DNA from: Verrucomicrobiota bacterium | GTDB lineage: Bacteria > Verrucomicrobiota > Verrucomicrobiia > Verrucomicrobiales > V1-33 | Length of the DNA stretch: 64,000 nt | Reading direction: 5' to 3' | Assembly: GCA_003402705.1 (NCBI GenBank) | Contig: QQNF01000010.1 | Location: 1-64,000, forward strand | Shown here: positions 36,596 to 49,091 of the stretch, one piece after another | Position numbering within the stretch: position 1 is the stretch's first letter | How the letters are laid out: every line of letters begins with the position of its first letter | Position numbers and translations under genes: made by a program | Notes under the pieces: model-generated | What the model was told of the DNA's origin: nothing | The model's input: the letters and a program-made list of their open reading frames with translations, nothing else | Database searches by the model: none

Positions 36596-36681
36596 GCCGG
36601 AATGGTGGAATGGTAGACGCTACGGATTCAAAATCCGTTGCCCGCAAGGGCGTGTGGGTTCGAGTCCCACTTCCGGTACCA
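36596..36681 (+). tRNA. tRNA-Leu (anticodon CAA)
   Basis: 86 nt including an encoded CCA. Acceptor GCCGGAA pairs with TTCCGGT (one G-U), anticodon stem ACGGA/TCCGT holds the loop TTCAAAA with anticodon CAA at its centre, a class II variable arm GCCCGCAAGGGCG is present, and the T-arm is GTGGGTTCGAGTCCCAC. Its 3' 62 bp (with two bases past CCA) are repeated at 49030-49091, so it is the integration site of the island to its right. Confidence 0.95.
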
Positions 36682-36683
36682 CT
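36622..36683 (+). repeat. attL: 62-bp direct repeat, left end of the island
   Basis: From the anticodon stem of tRNA-Leu to two bases past its CCA. Identical over all 62 positions to 49030-49091; sequence diverges immediately on both sides. Because the repeat restores the tRNA 3' end, the tRNA stays functional after integration. Confidence 0.93.
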
Positions 36684-36952
36684 CTAAACCCCTGAAAATC
36701 AGGGGATTCCGACGGGAAAGCGAGCGAAAGACGGGTAGTCGGAAAACCCCGGGAAATGCCCATAAATGGCCATGAATGCAGGAAAAACCCGGAACAAACC
36801 CGGAACGGATTCGTGAGGTATTCCAGCCCCACCCTCCGCCGCCCGCGGATTGCTCCCCGGAACACCTCCGCCGTCGACCCTCACCTCCACAATCGCCCTT
36901 ATGCGGCCATTCCGAACTTGTCGATTACCGCTTAATCCGGCAGAATCAGGGG

Positions 36953-37111
36953 ATGAATCCGGACCACGAAGAATTCCCCGTTACCCTCGACGACGCCACA
37001 AAGGCAAAACTGGACGAAGTCGTTACAGCCACCGGGCTCCCCGCCGGGGAGGTTCTCCGCCTCGCGATTGAAACCGGGTTGCGTGTGATGGAGTCGGCGC
37101 GGCAGAATTGA
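36953..37111 (+). CDS. Small ribbon-helix-helix-like protein
   Basis: 52 aa from the ATG at 36953, preceded by AGGGG. Reads MNPDHEEFPVTLDDATKAKL, DEVVTATGLPAGEVLRLAIE and TGLRVMESARQN. A short strand followed by two helices is the pattern of ribbon-helix-helix DNA-binding proteins (compare the TATGLPAGEVLRLAI helix-turn). It probably acts as a small repressor or antitoxin-like regulator for the island. Decayed copies of the same ORF occur near 39187-39255 and 42396-42450, each before another cargo gene. The stop is 38 bp before the next gene. Confidence 0.6.
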   Translation: MNPDHEEFPVTLDDATKAKLDEVVTATGLPAGEVLRLAIETGLRVMESARQN

Positions 37112-37149
37112 ACGCTGACAGGGGGCGGTTCGGGGTGTATTCAGCCACC
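37112..37149 (+). promoter_or_regulatory. Repeated cargo-gene leader, copy 1
   Basis: GGCGGTTCGGGGTGTATTCA, ending with GCCACC before ATG. Related sequence occurs at 39263-39285 and 40779-40816 (GGTGGTTCGGGCGTGTATTC), the latter again directly before a start codon. It may carry the promoter or ribosome-binding region shared by cargo genes; which of these is not shown. Confidence 0.5.
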
Positions 37150-39018
37150 ATGAAACCGAAACAGAAAACGACCCTCGCCGCCGCCATGCGCCCCTCCGCC
37201 GCCTTTTTCATCGCCAGCCTCGTCTCACTCCTTCGGACTCACGCTGCCCCTGGTGACCTCGATCCCACCTTCGGATCGGGCGGAAAGGCACTCTTCTCCA
37301 TGAATGGTATTGGTGGCATGGCATCGCTGGTCCTTCAATCCGACGGCAAGATTATAGCTGCCGGAGGAGCTCGTCTTGTCAGATTCTTGCCGGATGGCAC
37401 CCTGGATCCAGATTTCAATTCCGGCGGCATCATTAGTCTGTCGTATCAGCACGTAGGGCCAGGATGGGCAGATTTGGCCGTCTTGGCCGACGGGAAGATC
37501 TTAGCTTGTGCGAACCGCACACTTAGGCGTTGGCATCCCGACGGAAGCCCAGACACATCATTCAATGAAACCGGCGTGATCGCTCTACCGGGCCAAGCAT
37601 TTGATCTGACACTAGACGATACACGGAGAATTCTCGTCGGCATGCACTCCGGTCTGGCACGCTACACTTCCAACGGAAGCCTCGACCTAAGCTTCGGACA
37701 GTCTGGGATCGCACTGTATCGACCGCCAAACTATCGATCCGTCACAAGCGTTGCCTCGTTTCCGGGCGGGGGCTCTCTCGTAATGGAAGATGAAAACGGC
37801 GGGTGGGGCTGGGGCGTGATCACCAAACTCAATTCCGCTGGCGTTGAGGACTCCGGATTTCCACTTATTCAGGTTTTAGTCGGCATGGGTCGCATGGAAA
37901 TCGAGGGACAACGTGCGATCTATTACTCCAATGGGATCGGGATCTCACTAATCGACTTTCAGGGCAATTTGGAATCTGTCTTGTCCGGACCGGACATACT
38001 CAGCGGCGTAAATGGTTTCACCAAGCAGCGCGATGGAAAGTTCATCATGGTCGGGTCAAGTCTAAATCCGATCACTGGTCGTTCTGATGTCTCTATCCGG
38101 AGAGTTCTCCCCGACGGCGCACGGGACACTTCATTCGCCAACGACGGAGTCAGGAACGTTGTTACTGGCAGCTTCCAATCCGGTGCCAATCGTGCCGTAG
38201 TCCAGCGCGACGGCAAGATCGTTGTCGCCGCCATCAGCGATACCAACGTCTTGGTTCTTCGACTCCTCGGCGACGACCCAGACATCACCGTTGAGTATCC
38301 GCTGGGAACCAGTCTGGCGGCGGTGCCCGTGCCAACCATCGATTTCGGCCCCGTCGTGGCAGGCCAGTCACAGACACGGAGCGTGTACCTGTCGAACCGG
38401 GGCCCTGCTGACCTTGAAGGCTTGAAGGTCGTGCGGGGAGCAGCCGGAACTCCTTCCGAATTCACCATTGCCTCCGAGATTCCCGCAACACTCGCGACTG
38501 GAGAATCCGTGCCACTCACTCTGGTCCTGACCCCGTCATCTCCCGGCAAAAAGACGGCTACCTTTGAAATTCAGAGCAACGATCCAGACGAGAGCCCATT
38601 CACGCTTTCCCTCACTGGCCGTCAGGCAACCGCCACCGATCTCTGGAGACAGACGCATTTCGGCAGCATGGACGAAACAGGAATCGCCGCGGACCAGAGC
38701 GACCCGGATGCCGACGGAATCGCCAACCTCGTCGAATTTGCCCTCGGAAGTCATCCGAAGGAGTCCACGCCGAATACCGGAACACTTGTCAGAAATGGCA
38801 GTACCCTTGAATTCACTTACTGGCGCTCTAAAGCCGCCCTCGGAGAAATCGCATTCGTCCGTGAATTCTCCCAGTCACTCGCCGAGGGATGGAGTCAGGT
38901 CGGCGGCATGGTGGAAACCATTGTCGAAGAAACCACCGAACTTCAAAGGGTGCGCGTGACCACCCCCGCAGGCACCGCCGGACGGCGCTTCGTCCGCCTC
39001 CGCGTCACCCGTCGATAA
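37150..39018 (+). CDS. Secreted delta-60-repeat beta-propeller protein with ASH-like domain
   Basis: 622 aa from the ATG at 37150, which opens a signal peptide (MKPKQKTTLAAAMRPSAAFF, then IASLVSLLRTHAAPGD). Residues 25-380 contain delta-60 repeats: LDPTFGSGGKALFSMNG, PDGTLDPDFNSGGI, PDGSPDTSFNETGV, SNGSLDLSFGQSGI. Residues about 390-490 form an ASPM-SPD-2-Hydin/choice-of-anchor-like Ig domain (VPTIDFGPVVAGQSQTRSVY, then FEIQSNDPDESPFTLSLTG). The end has DPDADGIANLVEFALGSHPK and a final beta module. Typical of Verrucomicrobiota exported proteins; function unknown. It is the first large cargo gene after the small RHH-like ORF. Confidence 0.75.
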   Translation: MKPKQKTTLAAAMRPSAAFFIASLVSLLRTHAAPGDLDPTFGSGGKALFSMNGIGGMASLVLQSDGKIIAAGGARLVRFLPDGTLDPDFNSGGIISLSYQHVGPGWADLAVLADGKILACANRTLRRWHPDGSPDTSFNETGVIALPGQAFDLTLDDTRRILVGMHSGLARYTSNGSLDLSFGQSGIALYRPPNYRSVTSVASFPGGGSLVMEDENGGWGWGVITKLNSAGVEDSGFPLIQVLVGMGRMEIEGQRAIYYSNGIGISLIDFQGNLESVLSGPDILSGVNGFTKQRDGKFIMVGSSLNPITGRSDVSIRRVLPDGARDTSFANDGVRNVVTGSFQSGANRAVVQRDGKIVVAAISDTNVLVLRLLGDDPDITVEYPLGTSLAAVPVPTIDFGPVVAGQSQTRSVYLSNRGPADLEGLKVVRGAAGTPSEFTIASEIPATLATGESVPLTLVLTPSSPGKKTATFEIQSNDPDESPFTLSLTGRQATATDLWRQTHFGSMDETGIAADQSDPDADGIANLVEFALGSHPKESTPNTGTLVRNGSTLEFTYWRSKAALGEIAFVREFSQSLAEGWSQVGGMVETIVEETTELQRVRVTTPAGTAGRRFVRLRVTRR

Positions 39019-39045
39019 CCGATGACGTAGGCGCAGGCTCTTCGG

Positions 39046-39300
39046 TTCCCCGCCCCGCCCCACCACCACCCCTCCCACCCCTAGGCCCCGGAATCAGGGA
39101 CAGCCTCCTTTATATGGACCCCTTCAAAAAATTGGGAGAATTCCGCGATGATTCCGGACCCCTTGAATAATTTGTCGCCTGCTTCGACGACGCCCCGAAG
39201 GAGCGGATTGAGGAAATGAGCGGGAGGTGGAGCGAGTCGGCGCGACAGAATGGAATCCCTCGACAACGGCGGTTCGGGTGTGTATCTCCCCGCAAAACGA
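39046..39300 (+). repeat. Degenerate repeat block: decayed small ORF plus leader, copy 2
   Basis: Starts with a roughly 50-bp sequence also found at 42264-42314 (CCGCCCCGCCCCACCACCAC and CCCCTAGGCCCCGGAAT). At 39187-39255 it reads DDAPKERIEEMSG and WSESARQN, a worn copy of the small ORF at 36953 (DDATKAKLDE, MESARQN). The leader GGCGGTTCGGGTGTGTAT follows at 39263. The order, small ORF then leader then cargo gene, matches copy 1. Confidence 0.6.
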
Positions 39301-39390
39301 AACCCGCACCGCTTCAATCGCCCGCATCGGGAACCCCGATTAGCTTCAATCCGCAGGCCCGCCTCTCACCAAGAATAAATCCAGACGAGA

Positions 39391-40218
39391 ATGAACCAGT
39401 ATTACCACGCGGACGAGTCCGGAAATTCCGTCGGCCCGGTGTCCTCGGATGAGTTGATGCGATTGCACAAGGACGGCGTGATCAGGTCAACGACGCTTAT
39501 CACGGAAGCGAACCAAGAAACTTGGATTCCGCTCTACAAATTCGGCTTCACAAGCGGACCTTCGGCTGACACCAGCGCCCTCAAGGAGTGCCCGCTGTGC
39601 GGTGAATCGATTGGGTCCGGCATCTTCGGATCGAATTCCCTGATATCGCCAATCGTTGCCGCACTCATTAAAGAATACTGCCCGGAACAGTCGGTCCGGC
39701 GGTGCGAAAAGTGCGCGAGCGGGATTCTTGGGAATGCCAAGGAGCGTTTCACTGCCGAGCGAAATGGATTGGTTCGCGTTATTCAGACCGAACTTCAAGC
39801 GATTCCAATTCTCTCACTCCAAGCTCCTCTTCATTGGGACTACAGGGTTTGCGGGCTTGTGACAGGCCAGTCTGTGATCGGCACTGGTCCGCTATCGGAA
39901 TTCTCATCCGCTATCACCGATCTCTTCGGCTCTCAATCCAACGCATATCGCAGAAAGATAAAGGAAGGTGAGACCCATTGCGCGACCATGCTGAGGAACG
40001 AAGCGTTTGAGATTGGGGGAAACGCTGTGCTTGCGGCAGACGTTGACTATGCCGAGTTGGGCGGCGCAAAGGGGATGCTCATGGTCTGCATGACCGGAAC
40101 GGCAGTCCTGCTTGGCAACGCTGAGATTCTTGGTGAGAACACGGTGCAATCACTCACCCGACTTGGGGAATGCAAGGCCCGCCTCGACTACATATCGAGC
40201 TTGGCGGTAGAATCATAG
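39391..40218 (+). CDS. GYF_2 domain protein with a YbjQ-like C-terminal domain
   Basis: 275 aa. Residues 1-55 match GYF_2/DUF4339 (MNQYYHADESGNSVGPVSSD, ELMRLHKDGVI, then TWIPLYKFGF), a small domain that often starts bacterial membrane-associated proteins. Next is a zinc-binding-like segment with CPLCGES and CEKCASG. Residues about 155-255 resemble YbjQ/UPF0145 (CGLVTGQSVIGTGPLSEFSS, GNAVLAADVDYAELGG, GMLMVCMTGTAVLLG). YbjQ-like proteins form pentamers of unclear function. No membrane helix is seen. It is one of two GYF_2-type proteins in the island. Confidence 0.7.
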   Translation: MNQYYHADESGNSVGPVSSDELMRLHKDGVIRSTTLITEANQETWIPLYKFGFTSGPSADTSALKECPLCGESIGSGIFGSNSLISPIVAALIKEYCPEQSVRRCEKCASGILGNAKERFTAERNGLVRVIQTELQAIPILSLQAPLHWDYRVCGLVTGQSVIGTGPLSEFSSAITDLFGSQSNAYRRKIKEGETHCATMLRNEAFEIGGNAVLAADVDYAELGGAKGMLMVCMTGTAVLLGNAEILGENTVQSLTRLGECKARLDYISSLAVES

Positions 40219-40267
40219 TGCCACCGGCCCTCCTCCATGGGAAGTGAGTAGGCATCCGCCGTGAAAT

Positions 40268-40687
40268 CTACGCGATACGGCTAAGGAGTCGCCAAGTCTG
40301 GGTAGCGGGGTCGTGCAAGTAGTGATCCGTTGGGACGAGTTCCCCCGTATTCAGAAACGCCAGAACATCAGCAAGGGGCCAGGTCCCGATAATTTCGCCA
40401 TCCCGCCGGATTGTCAGTTGATCCGGTACATCGGCAAGGCTGCTGGCGGGATTTACGGGGGCGGCGGGGCGGGCGGCGCGATGGGTGGCGTGGAGTGCCG
40501 CGGTGGCGGCGCGTTCCGCAGAAGCGCGATTACCCAACATCACCGCAATGATGACTCCCAGCGGACCGAATAGCAGCCCAACGACAAATCCGTTCCCCCG
40601 TTGCTCAGGCCCTGCCAAGTTGCAGCCAATGAGCCCGCAAAGTATCCAGACGAGAGCAACACCATGCATGATTTCCAAAAGCTGCAC
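40268..40687 (-). CDS. Small membrane protein with a C-terminal GYF_2-like domain
   Basis: 139 aa. Two hydrophobic segments at the N-terminus (MHGVALVWILCGLIGCNLAG and GNGFVVGLLFGPLGVIIAVM), a proline/alanine linker, then DQLTIRRDGEIIGTWPLADV, LAFLNTGELVPTDHYLHDPA and TQTWRLL. The end matches the GYF_2 pattern with W and a late W-x-x-L. The start could be the ATG seven codons in. It is convergent with the GYF_2/YbjQ-like gene, with 49 bp between stops, and may act with it at the membrane; that is inference. Confidence 0.6.
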   Translation of the reverse strand: MQLLEIMHGVALVWILCGLIGCNLAGPEQRGNGFVVGLLFGPLGVIIAVMLGNRASAERAATAALHATHRAARPAAPVNPASSLADVPDQLTIRRDGEIIGTWPLADVLAFLNTGELVPTDHYLHDPATQTWRLLSRIA

Positions 40688-40778
40688 GATACTGAGCGAA
40701 CGGCGTATGCGTCAAGGCGTGACCGCAGCGGAGAGCGCGGGCAATTGCGGATCTGGTCAGCGGAGGGAAAAGTGGATC

Positions 40779-40816
40779 AGTGACAACGGTGGTTCGGGCG
40801 TGTATTCAGCGCCATC
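40779..40816 (+). promoter_or_regulatory. Repeated cargo-gene leader, copy 3
   Basis: GGTGGTTCGGGCGTGTATTC, then AGCGCCATC directly before the ATG at 40817. It matches the leader at 37112 and has the same spacing to the start codon to within a few bases. Confidence 0.5.
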
Positions 40817-41374
40817 ATGAATCCGAAAACCATCGCCGCCGCCCTCGCCCTCCTCTCAATCGGCTCCGCCCCCGCAAGTGAAGCCGTGACGCTCACTTGG
40901 AAGAAGGACGCGCCAGAGAACGCGCAAACGGCAGTCCTCACGCTGGCAGCCGGGGAGAGCTTGAAAGCAGTTTGGGGCGGAGAGCGAGTAAATGGAGGCG
41001 ATCAGGTTCAGAATCATATCCGGGTGAGGCTCTCAGTTACGAAAGGCTCCGAAACGTGGCTCGCGAACCTAGTGGACGCCCATAACTTCGGATCGGGAAT
41101 CGCTGTCCTGAACTTTCAAATAACGGGACCGGCAGTCATCCGGCTTGTTCCCAACGATCCGACGGGAACCACCGTCACATCCGTTGCCACTTTCGACGTC
41201 ACCCGCGTCGGCACCGCAAGCCCTCCCGCGGAAGTCCCACAGGAGGCTGGCAGCGACTTCGACGTCATCCTCGAACAGAGCAGCGATCTTGTGAACTGGA
41301 CGCCCGCGAACCCCGGCACCTACTCCGGCACCGAAACGAAGCGATTCTTCCGCACCCGGATCGTGAAGAAGTGA
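40817..41374 (+). CDS. Small secreted protein with terminal S-x-D-L-x-x-W module
   Basis: 185 aa with a signal peptide (MNPKTIAAALALLSIGSAPA). A beta-rich domain follows (SEAVTLTWKKDAPENAQTAV, LTLAAGESLKAVWGGERVNG, FQITGPAVIRLVPNDPTGTT). The C-terminus reads FDVILEQSSDLVNWTPANPG and KRFFRTRIVKK, the same short module found at the ends of the large secreted proteins outside the island. Relics of homologues lie at 43430-43573 (C-terminal half) and 44528-44735 (N-terminal half). Function unknown. Confidence 0.7.
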   Translation: MNPKTIAAALALLSIGSAPASEAVTLTWKKDAPENAQTAVLTLAAGESLKAVWGGERVNGGDQVQNHIRVRLSVTKGSETWLANLVDAHNFGSGIAVLNFQITGPAVIRLVPNDPTGTTVTSVATFDVTRVGTASPPAEVPQEAGSDFDVILEQSSDLVNWTPANPGTYSGTETKRFFRTRIVKK

Positions 41375-41583
41375 GCGGATGCCGATGGGGCCATCCCCGG
41401 CCGCCCCGGAACAATTGCACCCCCGGCAGCAGTTGCCCCCAAGCACGTGACGCCTGGCCCTGTCGTCGCGCTCCGGCCCGCCTTCGTCCCGCTTCGTCAC
41501 CCCAGAAGGAGATGCACACACCCCAATCTGAGCAGCGCTCACGACATCTCCTAGCAGGGATCGACTCGCCGCCTCTCTTAATC

Positions 41584-42039
41584 TCAATTCTTGGCGGCTT
41601 TGAACATGGCATCAACATAATCCTGCGGGGAGAACCCATCCGGAAGCAAGCCACATTTCTCTAATCGGGTCGCGTGCCACAGTGCCCTCTTCCGACCAAA
41701 CGATTCCTCTGGAGTCCCTGAAAACTGTTTGGCGATATCAACTATGTATCCTTCGGACTTGCTTCTGAAGTCCTCCGCCAGCGCCTCGATGAGCGGCCCG
41801 GATGCAGATGAGCCTTTCAGAGATTCAATTACGCTCTTCAGTTCGGATTGCTCGCGCCTCGCCAACGCTTCCGATTCCATGAACTGAACTTGAAATTCAT
41901 CGCTCCTCTCTCGCTCTTGGGTGAATCGGCCAAGGGCCTCTGACTCGAATCGGCGTGACTCTCGCAGCTGCCAGACATTGAGTGCGATGCTGCCACAAAC
42001 CAGCATCCAAAGAATTCCGTTTGATTGCCCAGATTTCAT
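41584..42039 (-). CDS. Membrane-anchored coiled-coil protein of unknown function
   Basis: 151 aa. A hydrophobic anchor near the N-terminus (GILWMLVCGSIALNVWQLRE) is followed by a long charged helix (SRRFESEALGRFTQERERSD to REQSELKSVIESLKG) and a C-terminal globular piece ending GFSPQDYVDAMFKAAKN. It is likely held in the inner membrane with a coiled-coil facing the periplasm or cytoplasm. No family is recognised. Confidence 0.6.
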   Translation of the reverse strand: MKSGQSNGILWMLVCGSIALNVWQLRESRRFESEALGRFTQERERSDEFQVQFMESEALARREQSELKSVIESLKGSSASGPLIEALAEDFRSKSEGYIVDIAKQFSGTPEESFGRKRALWHATRLEKCGLLPDGFSPQDYVDAMFKAAKN

Positions 42040-42263
42040 ATTTTCTTAGTTCCTCGCCACGAAGCAATTGGCATTAGCACCCTGACCCACCCCGCTGCCA
42101 GGCCGAAATCCCGCACCGTTCACCTCAGAGTGCCGCCAATGCCGAACGGCGATAGAAACTGCCTGCTTCATCATCAGCAGGATCTTGCATTCTCTAGGCA
42201 CTTTGTCCAGCAGGCCCTGAGGATCGAGTCGCGGCAATCCCTTGCCGAGGCAGCTTCCAGTCA

Positions 42264-42460
42264 TCCCCCTCCCGCCCCGCCCCACCACCACCCCTCCCTC
42301 CCCTAGGCCCCGGAATGCGGTATCTCAGTAATTATACGGCCCCTTAAAAAATTCTCAGAAACTGGAGATGAATTAGGATTCTCCCGGAGAATTCCAATCT
42401 CTCCCGACGGAGTTACGAAGGCGAAACTGGACGAACCGCCATCATCTGGAGCGGTTGGCA
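42264..42460 (+). repeat. Degenerate repeat block: decayed small ORF, copy 3
   Basis: Begins with the same roughly 50-bp sequence as 39046 (CCCCGCCCCACCACCACCCC, CCCCTAGGCCCCGGAAT), followed by CGGCCCCTTAAAAAATT, related to GGACCCCTTCAAAAAATT at 39117. Near 42396-42430 it reads ISPDGVTKAKLDE, a remnant of the small ORF at 36953 (LDDATKAKLDE). It precedes the secreted coiled-coil gene at 42528. Confidence 0.55.
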
Positions 42461-42527
42461 TAAGCACGGACCCGCATTACGGGTTTGCGTAATTTGAGAA
42501 AGCATAACGGGACGTAGGGTCTGATTA

Positions 42528-43226
42528 ATGAAGAAGGTTCTTTTTTCAACTCTCTGTTGCGTGGTCCCTTTGAGCAGCCTCGCCCAATCCCAATCTAAAG
42601 ACAATCGGGTAGGGGTAGAACAGATGGAATCTCTTCGACGGATGCAAGAAGAACGTATGCGGTCTGAGGAGGAGTTTCGTCTACGGGTGGAAGCAGACCG
42701 TAGGCAGGTGGAAGCAGAAAATCAGCGCCGCGACACTGAAGCGCGCCTAGATGCCATTGAGCGCCAGCAGCAAAAGATTCGCCAAATGCAGGAAGATTAC
42801 GAAAAGAAGCAGGCCCGGCGGGGGTTGGACGGCGAAGAGCTGGATGAGATAATTAGGCGTAACGCCGTCCCACCTATCACTGTTCCGCGGACAGTTCAGC
42901 CAAGACCCGCCCGCGTTCCGTCAGCGCCCCGCACGGCAGCAGAACGCGCATCGGAACTAGAGAAGGCCATGCGGGAAAGCCTGGCAGCTATGGCGGAGGC
43001 CCAGAAAACTCAGTATCTGACGGCTGAGGACGTTGGGGTCCTCAAAATGATGCTGAAAGACATAGACAGTATCGCCATGATTCTTTCCCCGAAGAATCCA
43101 TTTCAGGAAACCGCCGAGAGTACAGCAATGGCGCTGTCGAATCGGGGGCTCCTTCGGTATCGCCCGGAAGTGTCCAGAATTTATGAATTAGAGAAGGCGC
43201 GCTGGACTGCCGCTGGAAAACGGTAG
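42528..43226 (+). CDS. Secreted coiled-coil protein of unknown function
   Basis: 232 aa with a signal peptide (MKKVLFSTLCCVVPLSSLAQ). Residues 30-100 form a highly charged helix rich in R, E and Q (MQEERMRSEEEFRLRVEADR, QVEAENQRRDTEARLDAIER) predicted to be coiled coil. A proline-rich linker (PPITVPRTVQPRPARVPSAP) and a second helical part (ERASELEKAMRESLAAMAEA) follow. It could be a periplasmic scaffold or adaptor. No homologue is recognised. Confidence 0.65.
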   Translation: MKKVLFSTLCCVVPLSSLAQSQSKDNRVGVEQMESLRRMQEERMRSEEEFRLRVEADRRQVEAENQRRDTEARLDAIERQQQKIRQMQEDYEKKQARRGLDGEELDEIIRRNAVPPITVPRTVQPRPARVPSAPRTAAERASELEKAMRESLAAMAEAQKTQYLTAEDVGVLKMMLKDIDSIAMILSPKNPFQETAESTAMALSNRGLLRYRPEVSRIYELEKARWTAAGKR

Positions 43227-43429
43227 GGCCAAGAACCGACGATCAGCGCAGCGTTTCCCGCCCCCATTTTGGTCTCCTTTAGCCTCCTGTGGCTTCGTTT
43301 CTCCTTTCGAGCCTTAGGGGAAAAAAGTGGCAAACAAGCGCAATACCCCCGGAATTTCGTATTTTCTGTTCGCAATCTCTCCGCAGTCGGAAAAGCCGTC
43401 ACGGACAAGCGCCGCCCCCGTAACTATCC

Positions 43430-43573
43430 GTCCCGCATTCCCTTCTTTCACCCAATCGGATGCGGCTTTTATCAAGGAGAGTTCCGCCGACCTGATCACT
43501 TCGACGGCGGCGAATCCCGGAGATTATTCAGGAATCACGGCGAAGAGGTTCTCTCGGAATTTCTCCCATCGCG
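43430..43573 (+). pseudogene. C-terminal relic of a homologue of the 185-aa secreted protein
   Basis: Codons here read FTQSDAAFIKESSADLITST and AANPGDYSGITAKRFSRNFS. This aligns with EAGSDFDVILEQSSDLVNWT and PANPGTYSGTETKRFFRTRI at the end of the protein encoded at 40817-41374. No upstream domain is attached. Confidence 0.55.
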
Positions 43574-43591
43574 CTGGCATACCCCCATCAT

Positions 43592-44386
43592 TTACCGGGC
43601 GAACACAACAATGGAACAAGCCAGAAGGCCCAGCAGACATATCCAATGAACAGCTATAGCAAACGAAACACTGCTGTCATCACGATCACCGGTGGCTCGC
43701 CCCTGAAGCGCCATTGATATCGCCCTTCTGGAACACCACGTTCCAATAACTAGACCTATTATCCAGCCCTTGAGCGAGTCTGCGCCTTGGATTAGCGCGA
43801 TTGCACCCATTCCGTAAGAGAGTCCTGGGAGGTAATGAGCGATCTGCATAGCCGTTCCCGGCGCGATACGCTGCTCAAAATCGATGCTATAAATCGGATG
43901 ATCATCAGGCTGCCCCCCTTGGATCAGATTGTCTTTGTGATTAGTTTTGATGGAATTGCTACTTATCGACGGAAAGATTGTCTTATCGGTGATCAATTGA
44001 GCAAGAGAATTTTTTGAGGAGTCACCGTCTCCTCTAGCAAACATAAGCAATGCCATATCGGATGCCCTGCTGATTTTTATTGCACTCGGGTCTTTATTAG
44101 CTAAAAGCCTGTAGGCAACCAGCTTGTCGTTTAGTGTTATGTTAATACCATAAATTGAATTGCAGATTCCATTTGAATTGAATAATTCTTTCATGACAAA
44201 TTTTTGAACTTCCACCTCTGACATGTTCTCGCTAAGAGAACAAAACGCTGCGCTCTCAAGAAATACAAAATAAATAACCCTCTCCCTCAATCCAATTCCC
44301 GTCAGTTTAGTCGGGATCAATGCGTTTATTATTTGCAGGTTGGAAAAAGCGAATAGTACTTTGCTAAGCTTGTTTATATCGGCCAT
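43592..44386 (-). CDS. AT-rich gene for an unknown protein with C-terminal membrane helices
   Basis: 264 aa (MADINKLSKVLFAFSNLQII start). The N-terminal 175 residues are soluble, with SLSENMSEVEVQKFVMKELF and GINITLNDKLVAYRLLANKD. Hydrophobic segments follow near 185-215 (YLPGLSYGMGAIALIQGADS, LKGWIIGLVIGTWCSRR) and at the end (FAIAVHWICLLGLLACSIVV). Base composition is clearly more AT-rich than any other gene in the window, with AAA, AAT and ATT codons frequent, which points to recent transfer from another source. It has relics of one secreted-protein family on both sides. No function is recognised; as island cargo an accessory or defence role is possible but not supported by motifs. Confidence 0.65.
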   Translation of the reverse strand: MADINKLSKVLFAFSNLQIINALIPTKLTGIGLRERVIYFVFLESAAFCSLSENMSEVEVQKFVMKELFNSNGICNSIYGINITLNDKLVAYRLLANKDPSAIKISRASDMALLMFARGDGDSSKNSLAQLITDKTIFPSISSNSIKTNHKDNLIQGGQPDDHPIYSIDFEQRIAPGTAMQIAHYLPGLSYGMGAIALIQGADSLKGWIIGLVIGTWCSRRAISMALQGRATGDRDDSSVSFAIAVHWICLLGLLACSIVVFAR

Positions 44387-44527
44387 TGTTCAAGAATTTA
44401 AAGGTTATTGATCGAATTCCACGAGTGGAAAATGAATCCTCCGTGGGTTTCCTCGGCGCTTTCGTGTCTACCGGGCATCTGAAATTTGTACAACGTTTTT
44501 TTCGCTTCGTTTGATCTTGCCCGCACC

Positions 44528-44735
44528 ATGAGAATCAACGCATCTGCCTTTGCCGCTGCCCTTGTGCTCTTGGCCATTCCCGCTGCCGTCGCTTGACGCT
44601 GACGTGGAAGCGGACAGCCAGCAATGCCGACAATCCAAGACCGTGAGGATTGAACTGGGAGTCGGGGAGAGCATCAAAGCACTCTGGGGAGTGGGGGGAG
44701 TATCGGGAGAGCCCGAAGCGGGCAGAGCCCCCCGG
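44528..44735 (+). pseudogene. N-terminal relic of a homologue of the 185-aa secreted protein
   Basis: Starts with an intact signal peptide (MRINASAFAAALVLLAIPAA, VA) and then hits TGA. Shifting one base gives LTLTWKRTASNADNPRP, and a further shift gives RIELGVGESIKALWG. These match AVTLTWKKDAPENA and TLAAGESLKAVWGG in the protein at 40817. At least two frameshifts disable it. Confidence 0.65.
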
Positions 44736-44802
44736 TGAGGAGGTAACTGGCAAGGATTGCCGCGGCAGTAATCAGAATTGAGGTGATGACGGGTTTCAGC
44801 AT
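44674..44802 (-). CDS. Possible 42-aa membrane peptide
   Basis: The ATG at 44802 starts MLKPVITSILITAAAILASY, LLTGGLCPL and RALPILPPLPRVL before TGA. One membrane helix with a GGLCPL end is typical of small membrane proteins, but the last about 14 codons overlap the antisense relic at 44528, so the 3' end may be chimeric. 44803-45061 contains nothing recognised. Confidence 0.35.
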   Translation of the reverse strand: MLKPVITSILITAAAILASYLLTGGLCPLRALPILPPLPRVL

Positions 44803-45061
44803 GGGATTGTTTCGTTGCCGCATGTTCGCGGTTCGCGCATTTCCTTGGGATGGGGCGGGATGTGGTTGGTCACAGCCGATTTAAGGCCGGGGTCTGTCGA
44901 GGTGTCCAACTGACGGGGTCGGTGTCCGTGCTGCACGCTGCGGGTGATTCTGTGCGATTGGCAGGGTGCTGGCGGAGAGATGAGGAGGGAGAGCAGGGGT
45001 GGGAAGGTGTTGTCACCTCAATCCTTCCCCTGATCACCCCTCTCCGGGTCGGGAACGATCT

Positions 45062-45270
45062 TGGAAACGAATGCGTTTTTTGAGCCGTCCGTTTCCGATA
45101 TGCTATGGGTATCGTTTCCGGCTCGTTTCCATTCCCGTTTCCACTTCTGAGTCGGATTTGAACCGGGAAACGCCTGAATGTTCAGGCTCGTTTCCATTTT
45201 GTTTCCACCGGGGTGTGTGGAAACAATCCCCGTTTCCCGTTTCCCGCCTACAGGGAGGAAACAGGAAACG
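45062..45270. repeat. Iteron array, candidate replication origin
   Basis: About 13 copies of GTTTCC or its complement GGAAAC in about 205 bp, mostly extended as CGTTTCC(A/C/G). Forward copies are near 45089, 45113, 45124, 45136, 45189, 45200, 45231 and 45238; reverse copies near 45062, 45165, 45219, 45257 and 45264. Spacing is irregular, from 7 to about 50 bp. The array starts right after the stop of the RepA-like ATPase gene. Short repeats beside a primase/helicase module are the pattern of iteron-controlled plasmid origins. No separate AT-rich melting box is evident. Confidence 0.7.
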
Positions 45271-45273
45271 TTT

Positions 45274-46299
45274 TCACGATCCGGGGATGGCGTACTTCTG
45301 TCCCGACTTCTCCAACCTCCCCGTCTTCATCGCTCGCCGTGCCACTTTGGAAACCTGCCCCTTGGAACGTCCCATCATCTCAGCGATCTCTCCGCACTGA
45401 TTGAAGCCATCCCGGACCAGTTCAATCAGCAGAAGCATGTCGTCACCACGCTCGCACTCCACTCCCTCTGCCGTGACCTTCCAGTCCAGCGGGGGAGCAT
45501 CGTGCGCCTTGCAGTTCCGGCACTTCGTGAACTCAGAGGTGAATACTGCGCCTTCGTGAGTGGCGTCGTGACTGGATGTCAGCCGGATCACCCACTGCAT
45601 TTCGTCCTCTCTCTTGCTTGCTCCTCGAGCCCCTCCGCCGCCTCGGCCTTCATGGTGAATCAGGATCACCGTCACCCTTGCTCGCCGGAACCGCCGAAGC
45701 CATGAGTTCATCTTCTCCCATTCGTCGTTGTCGTTCTCCTTTACGCCACGGCACAGGCAACTGAGGTTGTCCAGTATCACCACCTGAACTCCCGCCTCCA
45801 CGACTTGCGCCAAAAGCGACTCCTGTTGCTCCGCGTCCGCGAGGTTGAAGCAGTACCCCTCCGGGAGTGTTTCGTGGTGAAGGAATCCTGGAACCTGCCC
45901 ACCAACCAGTGCGCTCCTGATGGCGTTGGTGCGCTCTTTCGAGTCGGCAAGATTCATCTCGCCGTCAACATACAGAACCTTTTGCGGCCCCAGTTCTCCG
46001 GCATCCCATTCTCCCAGCGGAGCCCCGTCGGATATGGCCTGAGCGATCAGCATGGACATCCATGTCTTGCCGACGCCACGCGCCGCATAAATCATCCCTA
46101 GATCTCCTTGCTTCATCCACTGCCCCATGAGCCGAGGCCGGGGAGTAATCTGAATGGCGGTGAGGTTGCACCCGGCCGCCATCGCTGAGGCGAATGCAGA
46201 AGGCCAGTCTTTCCTCGCCGCGGTGTTTGTTGTGCTGGTGATCGGACTGGCGTCGGGGACTTCGTCGTCATCTGGAATTTCTATCGTCGTGGGTCTCAT
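45274..46299 (-). CDS. RepA-like (RecA-fold, AAA_25) replicative ATPase
   Basis: 341 aa. Walker A is MIYAARGVGKTWMSMLIAQA (about residue 73), Walker B lies in VQVVILDNLSCLCRGVKEND, and VTVILIHHEGRGGGGARGAS is the following motif with the conserved HH-x-G-RG. This matches the hexameric RepA/DnaB-related helicases of RSF1010-type plasmids and similar ATPases in integrative elements. The C-terminal 60 residues hold a helix-turn-helix-like segment (FNQCGEIAEMMGRSKGQVSK) which could bind the iterons just downstream. It overlaps the primase gene by 32 bp, so the two are translationally coupled. Confidence 0.8.
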   Translation of the reverse strand: MRPTTIEIPDDDEVPDASPITSTTNTAARKDWPSAFASAMAAGCNLTAIQITPRPRLMGQWMKQGDLGMIYAARGVGKTWMSMLIAQAISDGAPLGEWDAGELGPQKVLYVDGEMNLADSKERTNAIRSALVGGQVPGFLHHETLPEGYCFNLADAEQQESLLAQVVEAGVQVVILDNLSCLCRGVKENDNDEWEKMNSWLRRFRRARVTVILIHHEGRGGGGARGASKREDEMQWVIRLTSSHDATHEGAVFTSEFTKCRNCKAHDAPPLDWKVTAEGVECERGDDMLLLIELVRDGFNQCGEIAEMMGRSKGQVSKVARRAMKTGRLEKSGQKYAIPGS

Positions 46300-47299
46300 G
46301 GGGTGTGCGTTGGGTTGGGGTTGGGGTTGGGTTTGTGCTTGTTCTCATTTTTGTGTTTCGGTAAAATTCGGTAAGGTAGTCCGGGCATCCGGGGCTGCGC
46401 TTTAGTTCATCGCCAAGGTCGCCTTCGACGAATTGGCGTATGCGTGCGGAACCACCTGCGGTTTTTATAGCTCTACGCCATCCCTTGGCGGCTTTCAGTC
46501 CGGGTTCGCCAGCATCGGCAAGGATCATTACATGACGGGTTGATAGGTAGGTGGCGTTCTTGTTGGAAAGGACGCTGGCTTTGCTGTAGGCGGCGATAAC
46601 TCCGACACCTTCCCAGCATTCACCTGATTCGTCCTCTGCACGCAGCACGGCCTCCACGGCTTCAAGAAGGCCGACTAGGCCCTCGGTGATAATGACGACC
46701 TTCGTGTCCTTGTTGATGCCGCATCTGATACCGAAGCCCTTAACGGGGAAATAGGTGTCAACCTTGGACTCGCCACCGTCCCTCAGCTGCCACTTCCCGC
46801 CGTCCAGTCGCTTCGCCTGGAAGATGCCGGGGCCGTGCAGGAAATAGGCTGGAAGCTCGCGGTTTGTGCCGACGGACAGAACACCGTTGGCAACCGCCAG
46901 AGAAACGGCGGCGGGGCTGATGCCGCGAACCCGCGCAATCTGTGCAATCTCCGTATCGTTGGGGATGAACGTCTCCGGTCGGAGCCGTGGCGACTTTGGC
47001 GGGGGCGGTGCAGGCGTAGGGCGGTTGATCCTTTCCCTGCTTTCCTCCCCCAGTAGGAAACCCCGTTCGCCGGGGAAGCGATTCACGCCAGACAGTTTCA
47101 CCCTCACGCTATTGTCACTCCAAAGTGGGGCGGATCTTTGGTTGTATTCGGCAATCAAGGGGAAGGCTTCATCCGGTGGGATGTCGAAACCTGCGACAGT
47201 GGAAAAGCAGGCTTTGTGAAGCGCATTCTCTCCTCCCGCTCCTTGAATTGACGGGGGGAGTTTAGCCAAATAGCGCCTGGCGCGTTCAATAACGTCCAT
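46268..47299 (-). CDS. Primase-like protein with Toprim domain
   Basis: 343 aa. The N-terminus (YLAKLPPSIQGAGGENALHK, ACFSTVAGFDIPPDEAFPLI) resembles the primase C-terminal/PriCT-like helical domain. The second half is a Toprim fold: VVIITEGLVGLLEAVEAVLR supplies the conserved E and HVMILADAGEPGLKAAKGWR the DxGxxG-type acidic motif. Toprim primases make RNA primers for DNA replication. No N-terminal zinc finger is visible, so loading may depend on the partner ATPase. The C-terminus ends in a short PTPTPTQ repeat encoded by GGGTTG-type DNA. First gene of the replication pair, transcribed leftward. Confidence 0.7.
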   Translation of the reverse strand: MDVIERARRYLAKLPPSIQGAGGENALHKACFSTVAGFDIPPDEAFPLIAEYNQRSAPLWSDNSVRVKLSGVNRFPGERGFLLGEESRERINRPTPAPPPPKSPRLRPETFIPNDTEIAQIARVRGISPAAVSLAVANGVLSVGTNRELPAYFLHGPGIFQAKRLDGGKWQLRDGGESKVDTYFPVKGFGIRCGINKDTKVVIITEGLVGLLEAVEAVLRAEDESGECWEGVGVIAAYSKASVLSNKNATYLSTRHVMILADAGEPGLKAAKGWRRAIKTAGGSARIRQFVEGDLGDELKRSPGCPDYLTEFYRNTKMRTSTNPTPTPTQRTPHETHDDRNSR

Positions 47300-47392: not shown

Positions 47393-47578
47393 TTACTTGC
47401 TGGCGAATTCAAGAAGGTCCTGATACCTAATCCGCACGCATCGCCGCCCCATGCGCTTCGGTCGAATTGTTCCGTCGGCAATCCATTTGTCTATAGTTCT
47501 CAAATTTACCGAGAGGAGCTTTGCCGCCTCCGGTCTTGTTATCCAAATGGGGTTGAGCGAATGGTCATGGTTAATCAT
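47393..47578 (-). CDS. AlpA/MerR-like excisionase
   Basis: 61 aa with one helix-turn-helix: PIWITRPEAAKLLSVNLRTI, DKWIADGTIRPKRMGRRCVR, IRYQDLLEF. This is the HTH_17/excisionase (Xis, AlpA) pattern, where the wing GRRCVRI contacts DNA. Such proteins steer the integrase toward excision or regulate it. It lies between primase and integrase on the same strand. The 176 bp upstream towards the integrase are AT-rich. Confidence 0.85.
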   Translation of the reverse strand: MINHDHSLNPIWITRPEAAKLLSVNLRTIDKWIADGTIRPKRMGRRCVRIRYQDLLEFASK

Positions 47579-47754: not shown

Positions 47755-48930
47755 TTAAATAGATTTTCGCGGCAGTAATTCCGAGGGTTGCAGCTTCTCC
47801 GGCATGATGTTGAACCACGCACGCGCATTCTCCCGGGAGGTAGTATTTTGATAGTGAGAGTGGACGACGCCGGGAGAATTCCCCATCTCCTCCGCTACTT
47901 GCGCCGCGTTCTTCGTGACGGCTAAGCGATACGTTCCGAACGAATGTCGCAAAAGGTTTTCGCTCCAATCAATTCCAGCGGCGGCGGAGGCGGCTTCCAA
48001 GTGACGGCGATATGCACTCAGGGAGATTTCCAGACTTGCGCCGGGGAGTCCACGGCACGTCCTCAGCCATGCCACGGCATTTTTCGGGATGGGTGGATTG
48101 CGGCGGCGGTTGGTCTTTGTGACTGCGCTGGTGAGTTCAACGAATGGCTCCTTGCCTTCCAGTTTGATCTCTCCCCACGTCAGACGCTCGCTTTCGGCCC
48201 TGCGGACCCCGCAGAACGCTTGCAGCACCAGCAACGGCAGAATGGCAGGGTCGGCGACGGCGAGAAGCGCACTTGCCTGTTGCGGCGTCAGGATGGCAGG
48301 GTCGGAGGGCGCGGCCTTCGGTGCCTTCAATTTCGACGCCGGGTTTGCCGGAATCTGCCCGCGATCAAGGGCGAGGGAGAAAACGCTACCAAGGGCGAGG
48401 GAGTAGTTTTCCCACGTCTTCGGGGCGACACCCAAGCCGTGAAGCCAGTGCGAAAGGTCATCCACGGTGACGGCAGACAGCGGGCGCATTCCGAAAGCCG
48501 TGGCGAAACGCGCCAGACGGCTTTTCAGGTCAGCTTGATGCCGCGGGGAGAGCTTGCGGCGCTCCGCATCTTCCAGCCGTTGCCGGATTGCTTCGGTGAC
48601 GGTGATGGTGGATTGCGCGGCGCTGAATGCCTCGATGGCGGATTCGACGACGGCGGACAGGTCAGGCGCTCCCGGCGTCGCCCTTTGCCACTCCCGAAAC
48701 CGGATCAATGCAGCCCTTTCGGATGAGGAGACGCTGGCATGGGCCGCACCATGAGCCGTCAATTCGCGGCGCTTCTCCGCCGCCAGCGCTTCGGCTTCTC
48801 GCTTCGACTTCGGCCATGCCGTTTTCGTGACGGCCTTCCCGGTCGCGTCCCGCTCGCTCCACCGCACCTCCCAGACAGGGAATTGATAGCTTTTCTTGCC
48901 GTTCGGGTGGTGGTGGATGCTGATTTTCAT
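47755..48930 (-). CDS. Tyrosine recombinase (island integrase)
   Basis: 391 aa from the ATG at 48930 (MKISIHHHPNGKKSYQFPVW), preceded by GGGGAG; the longer upstream frame runs into attR. Core-binding domain around residues 125-225 (FATAFGMRPLSAVTVDDLSH, ENYSLALGSVFSLALDRGQI). Catalytic domain: Arg I in CGVRRAESERLTWGEI, NLLRHSFGTYRLAVTKNAAQ with Arg II, MGNSPGVVHSHYQNTTSREN with the nucleophile Y. Two histidines of the classical set are N here (NLLR rather than HxLR, MGNS rather than LGHS). The same changes are familiar in a planctomycete/verrucomicrobial integrase subgroup. The gene starts 100 bp from attR and directs integration at tRNA-Leu. Confidence 0.9.
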   Translation of the reverse strand: MKISIHHHPNGKKSYQFPVWEVRWSERDATGKAVTKTAWPKSKREAEALAAEKRRELTAHGAAHASVSSSERAALIRFREWQRATPGAPDLSAVVESAIEAFSAAQSTITVTEAIRQRLEDAERRKLSPRHQADLKSRLARFATAFGMRPLSAVTVDDLSHWLHGLGVAPKTWENYSLALGSVFSLALDRGQIPANPASKLKAPKAAPSDPAILTPQQASALLAVADPAILPLLVLQAFCGVRRAESERLTWGEIKLEGKEPFVELTSAVTKTNRRRNPPIPKNAVAWLRTCRGLPGASLEISLSAYRRHLEAASAAAGIDWSENLLRHSFGTYRLAVTKNAAQVAEEMGNSPGVVHSHYQNTTSRENARAWFNIMPEKLQPSELLPRKSI

Positions 48931-49029
48931 CTCCCCGCTTCTATATGCAGCCATAGACAGCAGGCAAACGCAAAAGTCGGAACACGCACGGAATGAAGCC
49001 GTGAGGGCGCTGATTTTCAACGTGTCACC

Positions 49030-49091
49030 ACGGATTCAAAATCCGTTGCCCGCAAGGGCGTGTGGGTTCGAGTCCCACTTCCGGTACCACT
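49030..49091 (+). repeat. attR: 62-bp direct repeat, right end of the island
   Basis: Perfect repeat of 36622-36683. It carries the anticodon stem-loop, variable arm, T-arm and acceptor 3' strand of tRNA-Leu, but lacks the 5' acceptor and D-arm, so it is not a tRNA gene. Sequence beyond 49091 leads to der. Confidence 0.93.

Follow-up and report, generated by a model that had tools for sequence, protein, structure and literature searches.

In a 64,000-nucleotide (nt) stretch of a Verrucomicrobiota bacterium (positions 1 to 64,000 of contig QQNF01000010.1, assembly GCA_003402705.1; hereafter the "window"), a short segment recurs ahead of several different genes. The segment combines an open reading frame (ORF) for a 52-amino-acid (aa) protein that resembles the ribbon-helix-helix (RHH) type with a leader, and the region that contains it is the cargo end of a mobile element integrated at a tRNA-Leu gene. 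We favor the reading, with a probability of about 0.6, that the segment is an RHH operon head, copied and grafted within a decaying island through illegitimate recombination, and that its RHH protein would act through the leader. The repeated feature would then be the head of a two-gene operon, consisting of the 52-aa RHH gene, its leader (about 38 nt), and, in the native form, a gene for a small exported protein of the family represented in the island by a 185-aa protein.

The repeated RHH ORF and leader

The copies in the island are called A (36900), B (39095), C (40690), and D (42317), and all of the features below lie on the + strand unless stated otherwise. Copy A precedes the 622-aa gene and is intact, with the RHH ORF at 36953-37111 and a leader at 37117-37149 that reaches the start codon. 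Copy B precedes a gene for a GYF_2 protein, and consists of a worn ORF (39148-39251) and a leader (39262-39285). Copy C, before the 185-aa gene, has a leader (40782-40807) and the start codon; no RHH trace could be detected ahead of the leader (score equalled in 423 and 248 of 1000 shuffles). Copy D, before the 232-aa gene, is an ORF trace at 42368-42435 with no leader. The RHH traces in B and D are each matched by 0 of 1000 shuffles. The earlier note had described this arrangement from the letters alone, and the copies are present where it placed them.

We compared the copies, together with a copy from a second genome (G), by local alignment against 500 dinucleotide shuffles. Among the window copies, 0/500 shuffles reach the observed score for A-B (z 10.5), A-C (z 11.2), A-D (z 11.9), B-C (z 6.7), and B-D (z 5.5), while C and D are not similar (z 0.2; 221/500 shuffles reach the score). 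With G included, nine of the ten pairs are matched by 0/500 shuffles, C-D being the exception, and the resemblance that the earlier note had proposed to check by alignment exceeds chance in every other pair. The leader has the form GACA..GGYGGTTCGGG(N)GTGTAT at 37117 (A), 39262 (B), and 40782 (C). Leader A deviates from B and C by small indels and is missed by an 18-base pattern, which matches exactly only at B and C in the window's own genome and with two mismatches at a site on contig C8. Since the reversed pattern also yields 3 sites in this genome at two or fewer mismatches, only the exact leader matches count.

The intact ORF is RHH-like (CopG/Arc-like) in its match to the Pfam RHH_1 profile (E 6.7e-4 and 20.0 bits, against a cut-off of 20.5), its RHH-like predicted fold, and its 73% aa identity to copy G, which itself scores 21.0 bits with RHH_1. 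The AlphaFold model, with a predicted local distance difference test (pLDDT) score of 88, contains two helices, at residues 14-27 and 31-51, and is a monomer model without a strand. The 105 Foldseek matches to this model include CopG, MatP, Arc, and ParD, none of them at E <=0.001, and CopG is among the best (template modeling score (TM) 0.68/0.80, probability 0.92, E 0.36). The ORF resembles the CopG/Arc-type RHH repressors (PDB 1b01 and 1par) in its length, predicted two-helix, RHH-like fold, and single domain, whereas its RHH_1 match lies at the cut-off and its DNA binding, dimer, and target are putative. A sequence search of the PDB with the RHH profile returned nothing useful. A match in genome G003 (34% identity, L034) was dropped as an RHH relative, its surroundings being unrelated by eye, as were two matches in the own genome (E 0.0016 and 0.97).

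How widely does the unit occur? Of the order's 386 genomes, the same two have matches to both the leader (26-base pattern, three or fewer mismatches) and the RHH profile (E 1e-5): the own genome (G000) and G141, a metagenome-assembled genome (MAG) of the same order and another family, which supplies copy G. In a pattern-based scan of 84,980 species, a two-row RHH profile found one contig, taken as the G141 contig, and a single-sequence RHH query found no match there or in viral contigs. The two-row profile gave one weak match in the viral contigs (45% over 38 residues; L072 2508-2621, IMGVR_UViG_3300030208_000014), in which the leader pattern had 0 matches. Among the papers listed by literature searches, none was seen to describe this RHH-leader unit.

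In G141, the gene order is RHH, leader, and a gene for a 193-aa homologue of the 185-aa protein; over RHH and leader, the DNA is 77% identical to the window across 262 columns. The G141 contig carries its own element, with a 69-nt repeat (95.7%) at a tRNA-Thr(CGT), an integrase, and a D5 primase. Because RHH, leader, and 185-type gene stand together in G141, and two different elements carry the unit, the RHH-leader-185 operon is probably the native form. The earlier note had suggested searching other genomes and listing the genes that follow; the one other unit found precedes a gene with a signal-peptide-like start (the N-termini of the window proteins, below, were judged by eye).

Junctions of the 622-aa gene

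A case of apparent rearrangement is the gene behind copy A. Its 619-aa homologue in G001, a genome of the same genus, has a start codon that aligns with window residue 13, at 37186, and the 15 kb around this homologue contain no match (E 0.001) to the island RHH-leader stretch. The first 12 codons of the gene in the window (37150-37185), which the G001 homologue lacks, match the start of the 185-aa gene except for a 9-nt insertion (0/1000 shuffles). A 185-type head appears to have been joined in frame to a 622-type gene at the latter's own start codon, which makes the 622-aa gene a probable chimera. From its probable native ATG, the 622-type part (37186-39018) encodes delta-60 repeats, a HYDIN/choice-of-anchor-D Ig domain, and a C-terminal module. 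The last bases before the joint, CCGCC, precede the ATG in G001 as well. Leader capture is thus supported once, by the in-frame fusion, by the G001 start 12 codons later without the unit, and by the 12-codon match to the 185-aa gene.

At the 3′ end of the gene stands the first copy (39049-39094) of a 46-nt block, which recurs at 42271-42316 with 45/46 identical positions (98%); the sequence that follows the blocks is only about two-thirds identical. The block is C-rich, and G-rich on the opposite strand. By eye, four other copies of the 622-type 3′ end (one on contig C23 of the own genome, two in G001, and one in G141) share a common flank that runs on beyond the C-run at 39051, the point at which the window copy passes into the block. 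The first block therefore marks a junction, as these four 3′ ends have a different common flank from about 39051. The earlier note had placed the block at two junctions; both places are found, and the first sits at a junction.

By eye, both junctions, the one at 37185/37186 (CCGCC before ATG) and the one at about 39049-39051 (C-run), look like short microhomologies rather than long conserved edges, so that the recombination between conserved edges envisaged in the earlier note finds no support as a system. The sequence itself shows copies of the head, mostly worn, ahead of several cargo genes, and one in-frame joining: at a few bases of apparent microhomology, the 622 gene gained RHH, leader, and 12 extra codons, and its 3′ flank is joined at the C-run to the next block and RHH copy. 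Cargo change would then proceed by ordinary duplication and illegitimate recombination, with no dedicated cassette-exchange machinery.

The 3′ module of the 622 gene (last about 80 codons plus 33 nt, 38777-39051) also occurs at G000:C22, G000:C23, G001:C319 (two), and G141:C143. The copy counts of this 3′ end, from a search with two candidates per genome, are lower bounds, and a later search added a third own-genome copy. The isolated 3′ ends at G000:C22:37961-38197, G000:C23:20128-20364, G001:C319:1774-1971, and L069 8242-8528 have open frames and a synonymous excess, and differ in their 5′ cut points. The C23 and G141 fragments are cut equally within a few bases, behind the same upstream gene, and the window and C23 versions differ by 22 synonymous and 1 non-synonymous changes.

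Compared with G001, the 622 gene has 0.41 synonymous differences per site in residues 13-60 (48 codons), 0.61-0.70 in residues 60-350, and 0.28-0.40 in residues 350-622 (residues 60-350 versus 350-622, Fisher p 3e-12 on rounded counts); as residues 13-60 are also lowish, the two-part picture is not clean. Likewise, the synonymous divergence of the 185-aa gene from a paralogue on contig C72 is 0.63-0.73 in residues 1-122 and 0.45 after them (p 0.015). Recent exchange of 3′ parts may explain these differences, and codon constraint is the other reading. The C-terminal domain of the 622 protein, at 39-55% identity, ends large ORFs in other genomes of the order, with matches at E 1e-10 in 13/93 genomes, among which the window's genus is represented; so widespread a domain may be conserved for its function.

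Regulation and the weighing of the readings

The exported gene would have its promoter/operator and start region in the leader, and an RHH dimer would bind there. The one intact RHH, that of copy A, would in that case control its own copy in cis and, in trans, C and perhaps B, forming a small island regulon. Consistently, the leader is kept where the RHH ORF is gone (C) or worn (B), as expected if it serves the next gene. By eye, TTGTCGA precedes the RHH ORF in A (36918-36924) and in G141, and the leaders of B (39260-39266) and of G141 begin with TCGACAA, its reverse complement; this pair is a possible shared operator. A terminator scan placed no + strand site right behind the 622 or the 185 gene, and yielded 7 sites versus 7.7 in shuffles.

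Several observations weigh against the operon-head reading. A sigma-70 scan calls no promoter in the leader. A TTGACA-like hexamer can be seen by eye and has, 17 nt further on, TATTCA (A and C), TATCTC (B), or TACTCA (G141), which match TATAAT at three or fewer of six positions. The leader has no special fold (z 0.03, 1.00, -0.56, and -0.18), and we dropped it as a structured RNA. The RHH protein shows no significant selection (pS, synonymous differences per site, 0.24; pN, the non-synonymous counterpart, 0.12; Fisher p 0.11), and the intact RHH copies known are two only. Copy D keeps an RHH trace where the leader is missing, a worn 185-type copy at 44530 has no detected leader (290/500 shuffles), and neither RHH nor leader was seen in the upstream sequence read of the 185-type gene on C72. 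Finally, because G001 holds the only full-length 622 homologue compared, the ancestral form of the gene rests on one outgroup and the 12-codon match.

Serial accretion is a tentative possibility, in which this tRNA-Leu received several related elements and the repeats are what is left of decayed earlier ones, all of one family. The worn 185-type 5′ and 3′ ends and a weak AAA 3′ end between the cargo and replication genes fit this history, as does the G141 element, where RHH-leader-185 likewise faces a helicase gene. However, no attachment (att) remnant was found inside the island (the best inner match of a 44-nt att piece has a score of 25, equal to the average over 30 shuffles), the proteins scanned include one integrase and one excisionase only, and the A chimera needs a separate event regardless. 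We are somewhat more doubtful that the RHH-leader unit serves a family of Verrucomicrobiota elements as a portable cassette for expression and control, behind whose leader start exported proteins would be recruited in frame, all answering in trans to one RHH switch, so that the leader would find exported cargo.

The earlier note had proposed a modular cargo system of ORF-leader units that recombine between conserved edges. A dedicated system of this kind, with the leader as the 5′ edge and the block or the C-terminal module as the 3′ edge, is in our view unlikely. That the leader precedes three different genes, that the block stands at two places, and that the 622 and 185 genes show greater similarity in their 3′ modules than over most of their remaining length would suit such a system. 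Yet residues 13-60 of the 622 protein share the low divergence, the junctions resemble microhomologies instead of shared edges, and the 3′ modules occur at places without a leader. In addition, the unit is found in 2/386 genomes, the own genome included, and the one other unit found carries the probable native cargo. The unit is probably native to an operon with the 185-aa family rather than a general adaptor for cargo. Attachment sites of the attC-like kind number 0 in 36690-45270, with a shuffle mean of 1.2. Of the proposal that cargo was reshuffled as ORF-leader units, the part that stands is reshuffling relative to the unit, as in the 622 chimera; of the other copies, C is without RHH, D is without leader, and B is worn, with a gene that is not visibly exported. 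Integron gene cassettes are alike in the idea of interchangeable cargo units; we rejected them for the island, in which the integron integrase model scores 18.8 bits against a cut-off of 265 and no attC-like sites were found.

It is quite improbable that the contig joins pieces of related elements or strains into a chimera during assembly. The source MAG (4.08 Mb) consists of 128 contigs at 75% completeness, and 622-type 3′ pieces lie on two other contigs, as such an artefact might leave them. The 622 3′-end searches of this incomplete genome nonetheless gave 3′ pieces only and no second full copy, and the joint keeps the reading frame and falls precisely on the native start codon. Moreover, the wear of B and D is old divergence, and so was not made by misassembly. 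Least credible of all is a type II toxin-antitoxin pair, with the RHH protein as the antitoxin and the next gene as the toxin. The short RHH gene does stand directly before a second gene, and RelB antitoxin models match weakly, below cut-off: the window copy with NCBIfam (E 0.01) and the G141 copy with Pfam RelB (E 6.5e-4). On the other hand, three of the four downstream genes have signal-peptide-like starts, no toxin domain was found in the proteins scanned, those of the downstream genes included, and the RHH protein stops right after its second helix, with little room for a toxin-binding tail. Models of known defense and anti-defense systems gave no match.

Set against known systems, the operon-head reading comes close to two. 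As described in PMC3029335, phage morons are cargo genes with their own control sequence between resident genes, with junctions near gene boundaries and short homologies or illegitimate exchange. The 622 gene, between leader A and the block, would similarly be a moron-type addition with mosaic junctions. In contrast to the morons so described, the control part here is a regulator-like gene plus leader, several copies stand in one element, one junction lies inside a coding start, and promoter and terminator are putative. In archaeal viruses, as described in PMC11065993, a regulatory sequence is common to many accessory genes, and the element encodes an Aca regulator with a predicted winged helix-turn-helix (HTH). 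If RHH binds the leaders, the island would resemble these viruses in having a regulatory sequence repeated before several small accessory genes and a small DNA-binding protein. The Aca gene in that account itself carries the sequence, whereas here RHH precedes the leader and the pattern was not found upstream of RHH; the island copies are also few and mostly worn, and RHH binding is putative.

The element and its other genes

The element spans 12.4 kb, from the tRNA-Leu(CAA) gene that serves as the attachment gene (36596-36681) to 49091, and a 62-nt direct repeat of the tRNA end marks its two edges. The left copy, attL (36622-36683), is 100% identical to the right copy, attR (49030-49091). The cargo lies on the left, and the right side carries, on the - strand, genes for a RepA-like AAA_25 helicase (45274-46299), a Toprim primase-like protein (46268-47299; E 0.0026, below cut-off), an excisionase-like HTH protein (47393-47578), and a tyrosine integrase (47755-49020). 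The first possible start of the integrase ORF, at 49020, is 9 nt from attR, as in a tRNA-integrated element. No conjugation genes were found among the window proteins scanned, and the tRNA was the sole Rfam match at the gathering threshold.

The genes behind the copies encode an exported protein with delta-60 repeats and a HYDIN-type domain (A), a 275-aa GYF_2 and YbjQ_1 protein (B, 39391-40218), the exported 185-aa protein (C, 40817-41374), whose family stands behind RHH-leader in G141, and a 232-aa protein with a signal-peptide-like start (D, 42528-43226). The earlier note had called the gene after each copy a secreted-protein gene; this fits A, C, and D and fails for B, as the GYF_2/YbjQ protein has no visible signal peptide. 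Of 12 genomes searched for the 232-aa gene, the other 11 gave no homologue; of 93 searched for the 275-aa gene, the other 92 gave a single distant one.

Matches to the 185-type protein occur in 14/141 genomes; the structure model of the 185-aa protein was useless (pLDDT 34). Of 13 stretches around 185-type genes, those at G000:C72 and in G141 were read and the rest were scanned for tRNAs only. The second own-genome gene of this type (G000:C72:6825-7376) encodes a protein 53% identical to the first and lies within a small patch of genes of unrecognized kind, beside neighbors that we take to be mcsA/mcsB-like. Between the cargo and replication genes of the island lie a weak trace of the 3′ end of an AAA gene (43346-43409, - strand; 1/500 shuffles), a worn 3′ end of a 185-type gene (43487-43552), and a worn 5′ part of a 185-type gene (44530-44709; 0/500 shuffles against the intact local gene). 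The trace at 43487 is 86% identical to the G141 version and nearer to it than to the intact local 185-aa gene (8/500 shuffles).

Overall, the observation in the earlier note is real, its first reading was partly right, and its reach is modest. The 622 and 185 genes resemble their counterparts more closely in the C-terminal portion than elsewhere, a hint that exported proteins of the order exchange modules. With both of its junctions visible, the 622 gene offers a readable case in which a mobile island appears to have placed a foreign gene behind its own control segment, and the leader together with RHH may serve as a sequence handle for exported cargo in the elements of Verrucomicrobiota.

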